DNA of 64,000 nucleotides, from contig NZ_CP127165.1 of NCBI RefSeq assembly GCF_030264275.1, positions 1,414,001 to 1,478,000 of the forward strand, written 5' to 3'. The translations under genes and the position numbers were made by a program. Below the pieces are notes generated by a model. It made no database searches and had not been told where the DNA came from. It saw only the letters and a program-made list of their open reading frames with translations. The stretch comes from Marivivens sp. LCG002 (GTDB taxonomy: Bacteria; Pseudomonadota; Alphaproteobacteria; Rhodobacterales; Rhodobacteraceae). This document shows, piece by piece, positions 1 through 5,145 of this stretch; positions within the stretch are counted from its first letter, which is position 1; every line of letters starts with the position of its first letter.

Positions 1-1204
1 CTTTGCGAAGCGCAATCACCGCATTCAACCCGCCAAAGGCAAAGGTATTGGACAAAACCACTTCGACCTTGGCCTCGCGGGCGACATTGGGCACCACATC
101 AAGCGCACATTCGGGATCGGGCTCTTCGTAATTGATCGTCGGGGCAATCACCCCATCCTTGAGCGCCATGATGCAGGCAAGAAGTTCGACCGCGCCCGTA
201 CCGCCGATCAGATGCCCGTGCATGGATTTGGTCGAGGAGATCATCAACCGATCCGCATGGGGTCCGAACACATCGGCCACCGCTGCGCATTCGGTCTTGT
301 CATTTGCAGCCGTACCGGTGCCGTGGGCATTGATATAGCCAACAGCATTCCTGTCGATCTTTGCGTCCTTGAGCGCGCCCGAGATCGCTCGCGCCGCGCC
401 CGCCTTGGAGGGCATGACGATATCGGACGAATCGGAAGACATAGCAAAACCAATGACTTCCGCGAGGATGTTCGCGCCGCGCGCACGGGCGCGGTCATAA
501 TCCTCGAAGACATAGACCCCTGCGCCTTCGGACTGAACCATGCCGTTGCGATTGGCCGAAAACGGTCGGCAGGCGTCGCGCGACATGACGCGCAGCCCTT
601 CCCACGCCTTGATCCCACCGAAGCAAAGCATCGCCTCTGACCCGCCCGTAAGCATGATCGGCGCAGCGCCCGAGCGAACCATCTGAAAGGCAAGTCCCAT
701 GGCATGGTTCGACGACGCACAAGCTGTCGCCACGGTGAACGAGGGACCGCGGAGGTTATAGGCCATCGAGACATGGCTCGCGGCGGCGTTGTTCATCAAC
801 TTGGGCACGATAAAGGGGTGAACTCGGTTTTTTCCCTCTTCGTAAACGGCACGGTAATTCTCGTCCTGGGTATTAAGCCCGCCGCCAGAGGTGCCGAGGA
901 TCACGCCCGAGCGGTCCGCCTCGTCCCCGTGAAGATCGATGCCTGCCTGCGCAATGGCTTCTTTGGCAGCAATCAGCGTGAATTGGGTGAAACGGTCATA
1001 GAGCGAGATTTGCTGGCGATTGAAATGCTCTGCCTCGTCATAGCCGCGCACCTGCCCGCCGATCTGGACCATCAGGCGATCAACATCGCGAATATCAAGC
1101 GGTCCGATCCCCGAACGTCCCTCGCGCATTGCCTCGAAGGTTGCGGCCACAGTGCCGCCGAGCGGATTGATTGTGCCCGCGCCTGTAATGACAACGCGCT
1201 TCAT
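1..1204 (-). CDS. beta-ketoacyl-ACP synthase II-like (KAS), 3' end cut by window
   Basis: Condensing enzyme that would elongate an acyl-ACP with malonyl-ACP in the cytoplasm. About 401 codons are visible from an ATG at 1204; the reading frame is still open at base 1, and the last residues match the usual FabF ending, so only a few are missing. The thiolase-fold triad is visible: the nucleophile Cys in TACASSNHAMG, His in NAHGTGT, and His in KSMHGHLIGGTGA. It lies 7 bases downstream of a small acyl carrier protein gene, so the two are almost certainly co-transcribed. FabF family membership is clear. A role in a dedicated (LPS or secondary) acyl chain rather than bulk fatty acid synthesis is inferred from the neighbours. 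Confidence 0.9.
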   Translation of the reverse strand, partial: MKRVVITGAGTINPLGGTVAATFEAMREGRSGIGPLDIRDVDRLMVQIGGQVRGYDEAEHFNRQQISLYDRFTQFTLIAAKEAIAQAGIDLHGDEADRSGVILGTSGGGLNTQDENYRAVYEEGKNRVHPFIVPKLMNNAAASHVSMAYNLRGPSFTVATACASSNHAMGLAFQMVRSGAAPIMLTGGSEAMLCFGGIKAWEGLRVMSRDACRPFSANRNGMVQSEGAGVYVFEDYDRARARGANILAEVIGFAMSSDSSDIVMPSKAGAARAISGALKDAKIDRNAVGYINAHGTGTAANDKTECAAVADVFGPHADRLMISSTKSMHGHLIGGTGAVELLACIMALKDGVIAPTINYEEPDPECALDVVPNVAREAKVEVVLSNTFAFGGLNAVIALRK

Positions 1205-1211
1205 CGGGCGC

Positions 1212-1469
1212 TCAGACCTGCTCTTTCATCAGCTCTTCGATTGCCTGCACAATGGCGGCAACCGAGGAAATGTCGAAGTCACTGGCTGAGGGTTCATTGG
1301 CATTGAAAGGGACGGAAATATCAAAGGCTTCTTCGATTGCGAAAATGCATTCGACAAGTCCCATGCTGTCGATGCCAAGCTCTTCAAGAGAGTTTTCAAG
1401 TTTCACATCGCTTGGCTCGAGAAACGCCTGTTCAGCGATGATGGCGATGACTTTATCCTGAATGCTCAT
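1212..1469 (-). CDS. specialised acyl carrier protein (AcpXL-like)
   Basis: Acyl carrier protein of 85 residues. The phosphopantetheine attachment serine is in ELGIDSMGLVE. The start is the ATG of MSIQDK at 1469; an upstream in-frame ATG (1511) would add 14 unconserved residues. Compared with housekeeping AcpP it has a longer loop after helix II (VPFNANEPSASDFDIS), resembling the AcpXL group that carries very long acyl chains for lipid A in rhizobia. It sits between an LpxD-like acyltransferase and a ketoacyl-ACP synthase, which supports a dedicated carrier. That it acts on lipid A is inference. Confidence 0.82.
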   Translation of the reverse strand: MSIQDKVIAIIAEQAFLEPSDVKLENSLEELGIDSMGLVECIFAIEEAFDISVPFNANEPSASDFDISSVAAIVQAIEELMKEQV

Positions 1470-1511
1470 ATCGTGCCCCACTTTGGTTGCGTAGCAGCTC
1501 ATGCCTGCCAT

Positions 1512-2609
1512 CTAGGAAGTCTCGTCCGAGTTTGAAACCGTTTTTTGACGATTTGTGAAATCCTTCATGAAACGCGGTAAACGGCGAAGCGCTTTGTACA
1601 TGTCCACATGCGTCTGGATCGGCACCGCAGGATAGCCCATCATAACACGTTTTTCAGGCACATTCGAGGAAACGCCGCTGTTGCCTGTAATGACGACATC
1701 AGAACCCACCTTGAGATTGTCGGCAATGAGAGCCCCGCCCCCGACCACAACGCGGTCGCCCACAACGGTCGAACCCGCAACGCCCGATTTGCCTGCCAAG
1801 AGACAGTCGTTGCCCAAGACGACATTATGCCCGACCTGAACAAGGTTATCGATCTTGCAGCCATTGCCGATACGGGTCGGACGGATCGTGCCTGCGTCGA
1901 TCGTGGTGTTGCAACCGATCTCGCAGTCATTGCCGATCACCACGCCGCCCAGAGAATGGATGCGGTGCCATGTGCCGTCGCTCGGCGTTTCGATCCCCTC
2001 CTCGCCCATAGAGGATCGCGCCCGCTCTACATTCGCCTCTTGTTCAGTGACGAAGGAGAACCCGTCGCCCCCGATCACGGCATTGGGGTGCACGATACAG
2101 CGATCCCCCATCACGACACGGCGGCGGATCTTGGCGCCTTCGAGGATGAGACACCCCTCGCCGATGACGGCAGAGCCAGAGACGACCACATGCGCTCCGA
2201 TGCGGGTGCCCTTCCCGATCACTGCCCCTTCACCGATCACGGCAAAGGGACCGATGTCGACGCCCTCGCCGATCTGCGCGCCTTGACCGATTAGCGCCGT
2301 GGAATGGATGCCCTTGGCAATCTCTTCATCGCTGTCGAGCATTTGCGTCAATCGCGCCATGGCGAGACGCGCCCGCGGCGCGATGATTGCAGCCTTGAGA
2401 CCCAAGGCTTCCCAATCGGCACCGGGCCAAACCACCGCCGCCCGCGCCTGACCAAGCTTGAGCTGGTCGCCGTATGCAGGTGCCATCGCAAGAGCGAGGT
2501 CGGAACTGCCTGCTGTCGAAGGCTCTGATGCGCCGCTCACGCGGAGGGACACATCCCCAAAGCATTCGGCCCCAAGAGCCTGTGCGATTTCCTGAACGCT
2601 GTGTGACAT
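1512..2609 (-). CDS. lpxD: LpxD-like UDP-3-O-acylglucosamine N-acyltransferase
   Basis: The family transfers a 3-hydroxyacyl chain from ACP to UDP-3-O-acyl-glucosamine, the third step of lipid A synthesis, in the cytoplasm. The protein has 365 residues: an N-terminal uridine-binding type domain (about 1-100), then a left-handed beta helix of many hexapeptide repeats (about 105-320), and a C-terminal helical tail. The LpxD catalytic histidine context is visible in [10 protein letters not shown]. Start ATG 2609 has AAAGGG five bases upstream. The canonical lpxD of proteobacteria is normally in a bamA-lpxD-fabZ-lpxA cluster, which is not here, so this may be a paralogue with its own ACP. It lies 27 bases after the L,D-transpeptidase gene. 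Confidence 0.85.
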
Positions 2610-2636: not shown

Positions 2637-4247
2637 TTAGCCCTGAACCGCGCCGATCGCCACCCCTTCGCGTGCCAGAGCCTCCCAGATCCGTGCGTCG
2701 CGACCGTAAATGTCGGGTCGATACTGCATCTCGCCCGTCACACTGGTAAAGGCCGTGCGATAGACGATGTGCACTGGAACATGCTTTTCGAGATCGACGC
2801 GGGTCTCGGCGCCTGTACGAAGGCGAGACTGGAAAAAGTCCACAGGATCAGAGGTTTGCACCGCAAGCAGCGCATATGCGAATTCATGCGGCTGGGCCAG
2901 ACGGATACAGCCGTGGCTAAAGGCTCTGACCTGACGCTGGAACAGGGACTTTGCGGGCGTGTCGTGCAGGTAAATGTTGTATTTGTTGGGGAAGAGGAAC
3001 TTGACGGTTCCCAATGCATTGCCCGGACCCGGAAGCTGGCGCATCGAAAACGGGAAGCTGGACGCGGAGTATCCCGAGAAATCACGATCGCGACTCACAA
3101 CGGCACCGTTCGAGGCCACCACCTGAAGGTGGCTCACTGCGCCCGGATTGGCGCGAAGCTGCGGCAAATATTCGTTGACGATGATCGAGCGCGGCACGAA
3201 CCAGCTCGGGTTGATGACCATATGCTCCATCTCGTCCGAAAACTCGGGGCTTTGACGGTCATCCGATGTCGCGCCGATCACAGCCACGGTTTCAAAGGTC
3301 ACGATATCATGATCGACGATCCGCGCGGTAAAGTCGGTCAGATTGACCCAGATATGACGCTCGCCCCGTTCGAAATTGGTCCAGCGCTCGCGCTCGAGCG
3401 CCACAAGAACCGACTTGAGCCGCTCGGTCGCAGTTGTGTTGAGCGCACGGATCGTCTCCTCTCCTGCAACGCCGTCGGCAGGAAGGCCGAAATCTTCCTG
3501 CGCACGCTGGACCGCCGATTGCATCGCGGGATCATAGCGCCCCGACACCGAGCGTTCCAGATACCCCATTGCCACCAGACGGTTGCGAAGCGCGATCACG
3601 GCCTCGCCCTGATCGCCCGGACGCAGGGTGCGCACTGGAACAGGCCCGCCCCATGCATCATTCAGCACGACATTCTCGAGCTCGAACTTTTGGCGCAGCA
3701 ATCGGGCGTATTCGTGGGATTTGGGCGCAAGATCACGGAGGTATCCGGTCGGAGACGGTGCGGCAAGAAACTCGGCAAGGAGAGACTTGCGGTCATGCAC
3801 GGGCACTTCGCGCTTGATTTCGGACACAACATCACCGGGGTTCAAAAGACCGGTGTTGATCGCGCGGGCATAATCGAGAAAGGCGCGCGACAATTCGACG
3901 TCCATCGCGCCAAGCTCGGCAGCGGTCTTGGCATTCTGGATGCGGGCCACCAAAGCATCGGGCGAAAAGCGCTCACGCGGAAGCCCGTGCAGATGCGCAT
4001 CTGCCAAAGCAGTGAGCAAGGCGTTGCGGCGGGTCTGTGCCTCTTGGCTGGAGCCGGTCCAGATCCCTTCGAAGACGCGGGCGCGATAGACCTCGGCAAG
4101 ATCGGCATCACTCGACGCCGTCTCGGCGACAGCCTGCTTGAACGCGGTCACCTGAGCCTGAGCCGAAGGTGCCGTTGCGATCAGGGCCATCGAAAAACAC
4201 AGCCCGACAACCGAAGCGCGTAGCCCGAACACAGACTTACTCACCAT
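2637..4247 (-). CDS. L,D-transpeptidase (YcbB/LdtD type)
   Basis: Periplasmic enzyme of the YkuD family that makes 3-3 cross-links in peptidoglycan. The protein has 536 residues from ATG 4247, which has a GGGGGA ribosome site; a longer frame to 4292 is less likely. An N-terminal signal peptide ends near APSAQA. A peptidoglycan-binding domain lies roughly at residues 205-270 (LRPGDQGEAVIALRNR...). The YkuD catalytic motif SHGCIRLAQ has its nucleophile Cys near residue 447. Long two-domain architecture matches E. coli LdtD. It is first in a leftward operon with lpxD, acp and KAS, and divergent from a DUF882/MepK-like peptidase, the same functional pairing as ycbB-ycbK in E. coli. Confidence 0.93.
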   Translation of the reverse strand: MVSKSVFGLRASVVGLCFSMALIATAPSAQAQVTAFKQAVAETASSDADLAEVYRARVFEGIWTGSSQEAQTRRNALLTALADAHLHGLPRERFSPDALVARIQNAKTAAELGAMDVELSRAFLDYARAINTGLLNPGDVVSEIKREVPVHDRKSLLAEFLAAPSPTGYLRDLAPKSHEYARLLRQKFELENVVLNDAWGGPVPVRTLRPGDQGEAVIALRNRLVAMGYLERSVSGRYDPAMQSAVQRAQEDFGLPADGVAGEETIRALNTTATERLKSVLVALERERWTNFERGERHIWVNLTDFTARIVDHDIVTFETVAVIGATSDDRQSPEFSDEMEHMVINPSWFVPRSIIVNEYLPQLRANPGAVSHLQVVASNGAVVSRDRDFSGYSASSFPFSMRQLPGPGNALGTVKFLFPNKYNIYLHDTPAKSLFQRQVRAFSHGCIRLAQPHEFAYALLAVQTSDPVDFFQSRLRTGAETRVDLEKHVPVHIVYRTAFTSVTGEMQYRPDIYGRDARIWEALAREGVAIGAVQG

Positions 4248-4575
4248 AAATCCCCCAAAAACCAATCTTTCCAAGTTTTTACCAACATCCATCGGCCAGA
4301 GTCAGCCTGTCCACTCACAATTGAGTTCCAAACGCTTTTGTTGTGGTTTTGTTGCACCTAAGGCCCAAATTCTGGGCCGCTGCGCCATATTCACTTGGCC
4401 GCCTTGCGACCCTTTGCGCAAAAACCCGCCGATTTTTGCCTAGGTTACCAGAACCTTAAGAAAAAAGGGTTGGTTCGTGAATCACCCTATGCCATAAAAA
4501 TCGCACATCTGGGGAGATGGTAACCAGCCACCGTTTACGAGTGGCGATCATAATAGCGACGGGACAGACGCAATC
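4248..4575. other. 328-base intergenic region between divergent cell-wall genes
   Basis: No gene is visible. It must hold the promoters for the L,D-transpeptidase operon (leftward) and the DUF882 peptidase (rightward). Visible structure: an inverted repeat GGCCCA-AATTC-TGGGCC at 4362-4378 without a T-run, and two copies of a GGTTACC/GGTAACC element near 4443 and 4519 in opposite orientation. A CATAAT element near 4549 could be a -10 box for the peptidase. None of these is assigned to a known regulator. Confidence 0.4.
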
Positions 4576-5145
4576 ATGACCAAAACCAGCTCTTCGGGCA
4601 TTACTCGGCGCGGACTTCTCGGCGCGTTTGCCGCCACCGCGGTTGTAGCTGCCCCGACTTATGCAAATGCTTTTGGCTTCTTGCGCAACGCTGGCGATAT
4701 CCGCCGCATTCAAATGTATTCGGGCCGCACCGGTGAAAAGATCGACATGATCTACTGGATCGAAGGCGAATACATCGGTGAAGCGGTCAAAGAGATCAAC
4801 CATTTCATGCGGGACTGGCGGAACAACAAAACCGTCAACATCGACACCCGCACCATCGACATCATGGCTGCTTCGCACGCGCTTCTTGATGTGAGCGAGC
4901 CCTATATGCTCCTGTCCGGCTATCGCTCGCCCGAGACCAACGCGATGCTGCGCAGCCAATCTTCAGGTGTGGCCCGCAATTCGCTCCATATGCGTGGTCA
5001 GGCGGCAGACCTTCGTTTGGCAAGCCGTTCGGTAAGCCAGATGGCGCGCGCCGCTGCAGCCTGCGCTGCGGGCGGCGTCGGCAAATACTCGGGTTCCAAC
5101 TTTGTGCATATGGACTGCGGCGATGTGAGGACCTGGGGGTCCTGA
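4576..5145 (+). CDS. DUF882 / M15-like peptidoglycan peptidase (MepK/YcbK-like), Tat-exported
   Basis: Likely periplasmic zinc peptidase acting on peptidoglycan cross-links; the E. coli member YcbK (MepK) cleaves L,D (3-3) cross-links. The protein has 189 residues. The N-terminus carries a twin-arginine signal (ITRRGLLGAF followed by a hydrophobic stretch ending near TYANA). Metal ligands of the family are visible as SLHMRGQAADL (His...Asp) and FVHMDCG (HxD). It is transcribed away from an L,D-transpeptidase gene, so maker and cutter of the same bond may share one promoter region. Catalytic specificity is inferred from family and context. Confidence 0.88.
   Translation: MTKTSSSGITRRGLLGAFAATAVVAAPTYANAFGFLRNAGDIRRIQMYSGRTGEKIDMIYWIEGEYIGEAVKEINHFMRDWRNNKTVNIDTRTIDIMAASHALLDVSEPYMLLSGYRSPETNAMLRSQSSGVARNSLHMRGQAADLRLASRSVSQMARAAAACAAGGVGKYSGSNFVHMDCGDVRTWGS

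Follow-up and report, generated by a model that had tools for sequence, protein, structure and literature searches.

The operon

The DNA considered here, called the window throughout, is a stretch of 64,000 nucleotides from Marivivens sp. LCG002, of the family Rhodobacteraceae (contig NZ_CP127165.1, positions 1,414,001 to 1,478,000; G000:C1:1414001-1478000). At its left end, on the minus strand, lie genes for the lipid A enzyme LpxD, for an acyl carrier protein (ACP), and for a beta-ketoacyl-ACP synthase (KAS). An original prediction, made from the window alone, had described the three as a tight operon, and positions, gaps, and family scores agree with it; the gene observation is confirmed. 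The features, in order of transcription, are:

2637..4292, minus strand: L,D-transpeptidase (LDT), first gene of the run, with YkuD, PG_binding_1, and scaffold domains (domain matches; conserved gene order)
1512..2609, minus strand: LpxD, UDP-3-O-acylglucosamine N-acyltransferase of a long-loop subfamily, 365 aa (TIGR01853, 273.1 bits; tree; residues)
1968..2051, minus strand: LpxD loop, residues ~187-214, 28 residues as against 6-11 in canonical alphaproteobacterial LpxDs (alignment)
1212..1469, minus strand: dedicated ACP, 85 aa from Met15, with phosphopantetheine site GIDSM (PF00550, 40.0 bits; alignment, start, tree)
1..1204, minus strand: FabF-type KAS, its final 8 bases past the window edge (full gene L009:15993-17204, 403 aa)

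By these coordinates, 27 nt separate LDT from lpxD, 42 nt separate lpxD from the ACP gene, and 7 nt separate the latter from the KAS gene. The longest open reading frame of the ACP (1212-1511) would encode 99 aa, but homologues and a GGGG stretch upstream make Met15 the likely start. To the left of the KAS gene lies an IalB-like gene in convergent orientation, which makes the KAS gene the last of the run. No additional fab or lpx gene, as the original prediction had thought might lie left of base 1, is found in the neighbouring sequence.

A sole LpxD outside the bamA cluster

The original prediction regarded the LpxD as an extra enzyme that took the place of LpxXL or acted on another amino-sugar lipid, and considered that a second lpxD might reside in a bamA-fabZ-lpxA cluster. 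The genome has 16 matches to TIGR01853, of which only the window gene exceeds the cut-off (273.1 bits, a whole-protein score, vs. 242.5). The lipid A cluster is present (rseP-bamA-skp-fabZ-lpxA-lpxI-lpxB), but the slot between bamA/skp and fabZ-lpxA, where lpxD is usually found, is empty. Both bamA or skp and lpxA could be read in 54 loci (some genomes being counted more than once), and lpxD lies between them in 47. Six of the seven remaining loci come from the window's own family (five genomes, the window's included); the seventh, L293, is from another family and has a long-loop lpxD after lpxB. LpxD occurs once per genome (E<=1e-40) in all 61 family genomes sampled.

A second LpxD-like gene in the genome (L010:6751-7668; G000:C1:558752-559669; 305 aa) scores 184.9 bits, below the cut-off, and lies in a polysaccharide-type island with low GC content at third codon positions. 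Its product is probably a sugar N-acyltransferase for a surface glycan.

A dedicated ACP and ketosynthase

A search of the genome for ACPs (E<=10) gives two matches, the ACP of the operon and the housekeeping AcpP, which are 41% identical. In a tree made from 84 columns, weak in its inner branches, a branch supported at 98 by the approximate likelihood ratio test (SH-aLRT) separates the ACPs that are paired with a KAS from this family's AcpPs. The original prediction credited the ACP with an AcpXL-like extended loop. In the alignment, the segment leading into the last helix is indeed longer than in AcpP, but the likeness to AcpXL did not hold up: the protein scores 30.2 bits against the AcpXL model PRK06508, whose cut-off is 83.

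The KAS is over the cut-off of NF005589 (432.6 bits vs. 387) and under that of the FabF equivalog TIGR03150 (453.5 vs. 493.75). It belongs to a clade apart from five housekeeping FabF paralogues (support 99), and the active-site residues Cys162, His294, Lys326, and His331 are intact in all 174 KAS rows. The separation of both proteins from their housekeeping counterparts upholds the earlier notion of a dedicated acyl line, which likely serves LpxD.

Conservation of the block

The order LDT-lpxD-ACP-KAS recurs in 29 of the 30 family loci read (from 61 matches), which argues that the operon is not a matter of chance; the exception is L018 (genome G003), where ACP and KAS are missing. LDT precedes lpxD in all 29 of the other family loci read, and 78 of the 80 named loci likewise have LDT before lpxD. 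Behind lpxD, the named loci have ACP in 77 cases and KAS in 75. Of the five without KAS, three (L172-L174) also lack ACP, and in two (L208 and L229) the sequence ends soon after ACP. In a set with nearly one genome per genus, 289 of 296 family genomes have a KAS of this type (E<=1e-105), the others being G003, G013, G754, G775, G809, G850, and G889; G850 has a diverged KAS adjoining lpxD. From these family counts it may be supposed that Rhodobacter sphaeroides and R. capsulatus carry the block as well.

Since the window LpxD is the only one above the cut-off, the bamA cluster is without lpxD, and the block occurs in almost all genera of the family, it is this LpxD on which the main lipid A pathway runs. 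The idea of an extra LpxD replacing LpxXL is rejected on the same single copy and empty slot, together with the low AcpXL score and the family-wide presence of the block, though no search aimed at LpxXL itself was made; another amino-sugar lipid as substrate likewise finds no support in the single copy, the slot, and the near-universal block. The original prediction had named two findings as fatal to it, that this be the only lpxD in the genome, which it is, and that the ACP cluster with AcpP, which it does not. As a whole, then, the earlier interpretation is partly supported.

A sample of the class gave the KAS (E<=1e-110) in 23 of 289 genomes, five from the window's family and 18 from elsewhere. 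Ten of those 18 loci, from nine families, have lpxD beside ACP and KAS, and in eight the pair lies away from lpxD. In a sample of the phylum (E<=1e-105), 61 of 397 genomes have the KAS, eight of them outside the class; no lpxD lies beside the pair in the seven of these that were read. In these genomes and in other alphaproteobacterial families, ACP and KAS either stand by themselves or lie beside other enzymes. In G049, lpxD and the pair lie apart, and G125 (L057) and G222 (L056) have the pair and no match to LpxA or LpxD at E<=1e-25.

Related ACP-KAS pairs in other Proteobacteria adjoin a class-III aminotransferase (L138 and L143 by Pfam, L142 by eye), and the pair at L143 also adjoins an HAD phosphatase. 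Perhaps these pairs take part in converting 3-oxoacyl to 3-aminoacyl groups.

The long-loop LpxD clade

A tree of 98 LpxD rows (a quick method with no bootstrap, columns filled in less than 70% of rows being dropped and with them most of the insertion described below) places all 33 KAS-linked rows in one clade of 46 (SH-aLRT 100), along with 12 that are unlinked or unread and L293. The other 45 bamA-cluster rows are separate. In an alignment, the loop between the positions of E. coli Phe183 and Trp has 24-31 residues in 116 of 116 KAS-linked rows and 6-11 in 45 of 46 bamA-cluster rows, an insertion of about 19 residues near the acyl site. Asp is found at position 275 in all 116 KAS-linked rows vs. 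11 of the 46 bamA-cluster rows, and Asn at 276 in 98 of the 116 vs. none of the 46. In E. coli LpxD, according to PMC6286764, His239 is catalytic, Gly257 forms the oxyanion hole, His276 helps bind pyrophosphate, and Phe183 lies beside the acyl groups. The equivalents of His239 and Gly257 are present in the window LpxD and kept in all 116 KAS-linked rows. N-acyltransfer to UDP-3-O-acylglucosamine is the predicted activity.

A residue switch that might suit LpxD to 3-oxo chains, sought as a changed contact to the 3-hydroxyl, found no support: Asp232 is kept, and the position of Gln236 varies in canonical LpxDs as well as in those of the block. At the position of E. coli Met290, associated with chain length, 71 of the 116 KAS-linked LpxDs have Lys, which would lie at the end of an acyl pocket, and the window LpxD has Gly.

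Two genomes of another family (G132 and G306, family f72) have a canonical lpxD in the bamA cluster plus a long-loop lpxD with ACP and KAS. Since both types coexist there, the simplest history may be that an additional LpxD arose together with a supply of its own and that the canonical gene was then lost in the window's family. If so, a whole family would have replaced the housekeeping gene by a distinct lpxD paralogue that has a dedicated substrate line. No such swap was found in the available portions of a paper on the evolution of the lipid A pathway (PMC3087551).

A possible origin of 3-oxo lipid A

The product of a KAS is 3-oxoacyl-ACP, and LpxD N-acylates UDP-3-O-acylglucosamine from acyl-ACP. 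In the lipid A of Rhodobacter the 3-oxo group is amide-linked, and chain lengths in Rhodobacter point to a primer of C12 to C14. According to the model we propose, the KAS would condense an acyl primer with malonyl on the dedicated ACP, and LpxD would accept the chain from that ACP and transfer it to the 2-amino group of UDP-3-O-acylglucosamine. If the chain were removed, at least in part, before FabG reduced it, the outcome would be lipid A with amide-linked 3-oxoacyl groups (3-oxo-14:0). Docking of the ACP on the window LpxD, the length of the chain, and its 3-oxo state are what we infer. That the block is the main N-acylation step of lipid A, with its own acyl supply and a chain at least partly unreduced, seems to us somewhat short of an even prospect. 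The specific step in which KAS and ACP pass an unreduced 3-oxoacyl chain to LpxD, the fatty acid cycle being stopped after its first step, is more tentative and may well be wrong.

What recommends delivery before reduction is that KAS and ACP stay with LpxD and no reductase is linked to them. No ketoreductase gene lies within 4.5 kb of 74 of the 75 named KAS copies (the single match, to a short-chain dehydrogenase/reductase, is at L219), nor beside ACP-KAS in 18 other loci with the pair. PMC5923411 reports 3-oxo fatty acids in the lipid A of R. sphaeroides and R. capsulatus, and amide-linked 3-oxo-14:0 in that of Spiribacter salinus and Ectothiorhodospira halophila; it also notes that 3-oxo acids escape the customary fatty acid procedure. 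A search of titles and abstracts, largely outside the subscription literature, turned up none that connects the operon or an individual gene with 3-oxo lipid A, and to that extent the 3-oxo group has no assigned enzyme. Were the model correct, the 3-oxo-tetradecanoyl amides of Rhodobacter lipid A, on which the TLR4 antagonist eritoran is modelled, would have their biosynthetic origin here. A private operon may explain these odd fatty acids, and the block offers a concrete three-gene candidate for the 3-oxo group. It is present in almost the whole family, and the lineages that have lost ACP and KAS serve as natural controls.

Several observations weigh against this proposal. Asp232, which in E. 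coli LpxD holds the 3-hydroxyl of the acyl chain (PMC6286764), is kept in all 116 KAS-linked rows, as expected of an enzyme for 3-hydroxyacyl chains. According to a review, both amide-linked chains of R. sphaeroides lipid A are 3-OH-14:0 (PMC7956469). The chain could also be reduced by the housekeeping FabG. Spiribacter and Ectothiorhodospira, the producers of 3-oxo-14:0 named above (PMC5923411), are Gammaproteobacteria; the seven KAS-bearing genomes read of the eight from outside the class, which may or may not include these genera, have no lpxD beside the pair.

There remain the natural losses. In G003, G013, and G889, LDT and lpxD are kept, an IalB-like gene adjoins lpxD, and neither ACP nor KAS lies between; in G754, lpxD is kept and no ACP or KAS is found in the short stretch that its short contig provides. 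These too speak against the proposal. Since LDT-lpxD is kept where ACP-KAS is lost, LpxD can dispense with the private pair, and the pattern fits a pair that selects the chain but is not required for lipid A synthesis as such. Among named genomes, the nearest relatives of the G003 LpxD, used as query, are Rhodobacterales (e.g., Litoreibacter, Gemmobacter, Phaeovulum, Rhodovulum, and Paracoccus). The KAS-less G775 and G809 have no match to LpxD, and G775 none to LpxA; G754 has a match to LpxD and none to LpxA. All three are fragmented assemblies (90-140 contigs), in which co-loss and missing sequence are indistinguishable. The LpxD loop has drifted in two of four KAS-less lineages (L252 and L071) and not in the L018 group or L254, and control stretches have outliers of similar size.

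The strongest alternative retains the same line but has FabG reduce the chain on the dedicated ACP, so that LpxD would take an (R)-3-hydroxyacyl chain and the 3-oxo group would come from later oxidation. The private pair would then only set chain length and separate a C14 stream from membrane lipid synthesis. This account draws on Asp232 and the reviewed 3-OH-14:0 and also on a housekeeping fabG that adjoins acpP and fabF in the genome. By itself, however, it leaves the 3-oxo acids in lipid A unexplained, and no oxidase gene accompanies the block. We consider it a credible contender, if somewhat unlikely.

It is improbable that ACP-KAS serves some other purpose (ornithine lipid, a signal, or secondary acylation) and is merely co-transcribed with lpxD. 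That would suit the persistence of LpxD where the pair is lost, the pairs away from lpxD in eight of the 18 class loci outside the family and in 18 further loci, and the split in G049, but 75 of the 80 named loci have the KAS linked to lpxD, as do ten loci of nine other families, and the LpxD clade matches the linkage. As for a very-long-chain line like that of AcpXL and LpxXL, the separate ACP with its longer loop and the accompanying KAS give it some appeal, but it is hardly credible in view of the AcpXL score, the weak matches of the KAS to PRK06519 (30.4 vs. 320 bits) and PRK06501 (247.6 vs. 629 bits), which we take to be the rhizobial XL synthases, and an operon without XL dehydratase or reductase.

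Comparison with known systems

Canonical LpxD, encoded in the cluster bamA-skp-lpxD-fabZ-lpxA, served for comparison through the structures from E. coli (4ihf), P. aeruginosa (3pmo), and C. trachomatis (2iu8). The window LpxD shares its family score, fold motifs, and equivalents of His239, Gly257, and Asp232. It differs in the empty bamA/skp-lpxA slot, the 28-residue loop, Asp at 275 (with Asn at 276 in 98 of 116 KAS-linked rows), the clade to which it belongs, and its possession of an ACP and KAS, and so is not to be counted among canonical LpxDs. The rhizobial AcpXL-FabF-LpxXL line, which serves 27-hydroxy very-long chains, likewise supplies lipid A with acyl chains through a separate ACP and KAS; here, however, the partner is LpxD, responsible for primary amide acylation. 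Serine palmitoyltransferase with its specialised ACP (PMC9386255) also sets an acyl-transferring enzyme beside a private ACP, but in the window there is a ketosynthase partner, and LpxD takes the place of the palmitoyltransferase.

Genes upstream of lpxD

A divergent gene of the DUF882 family, with a Tat-type product, stands beside the L,D-transpeptidase gene (window 2637-5145). In R. sphaeroides, RSP_1199 is an L,D-transpeptidase under the control of CenR, according to PMC9275681. It may be the counterpart of the operon's LDT, although the neighbour listed there, RSP_1200, is annotated differently.
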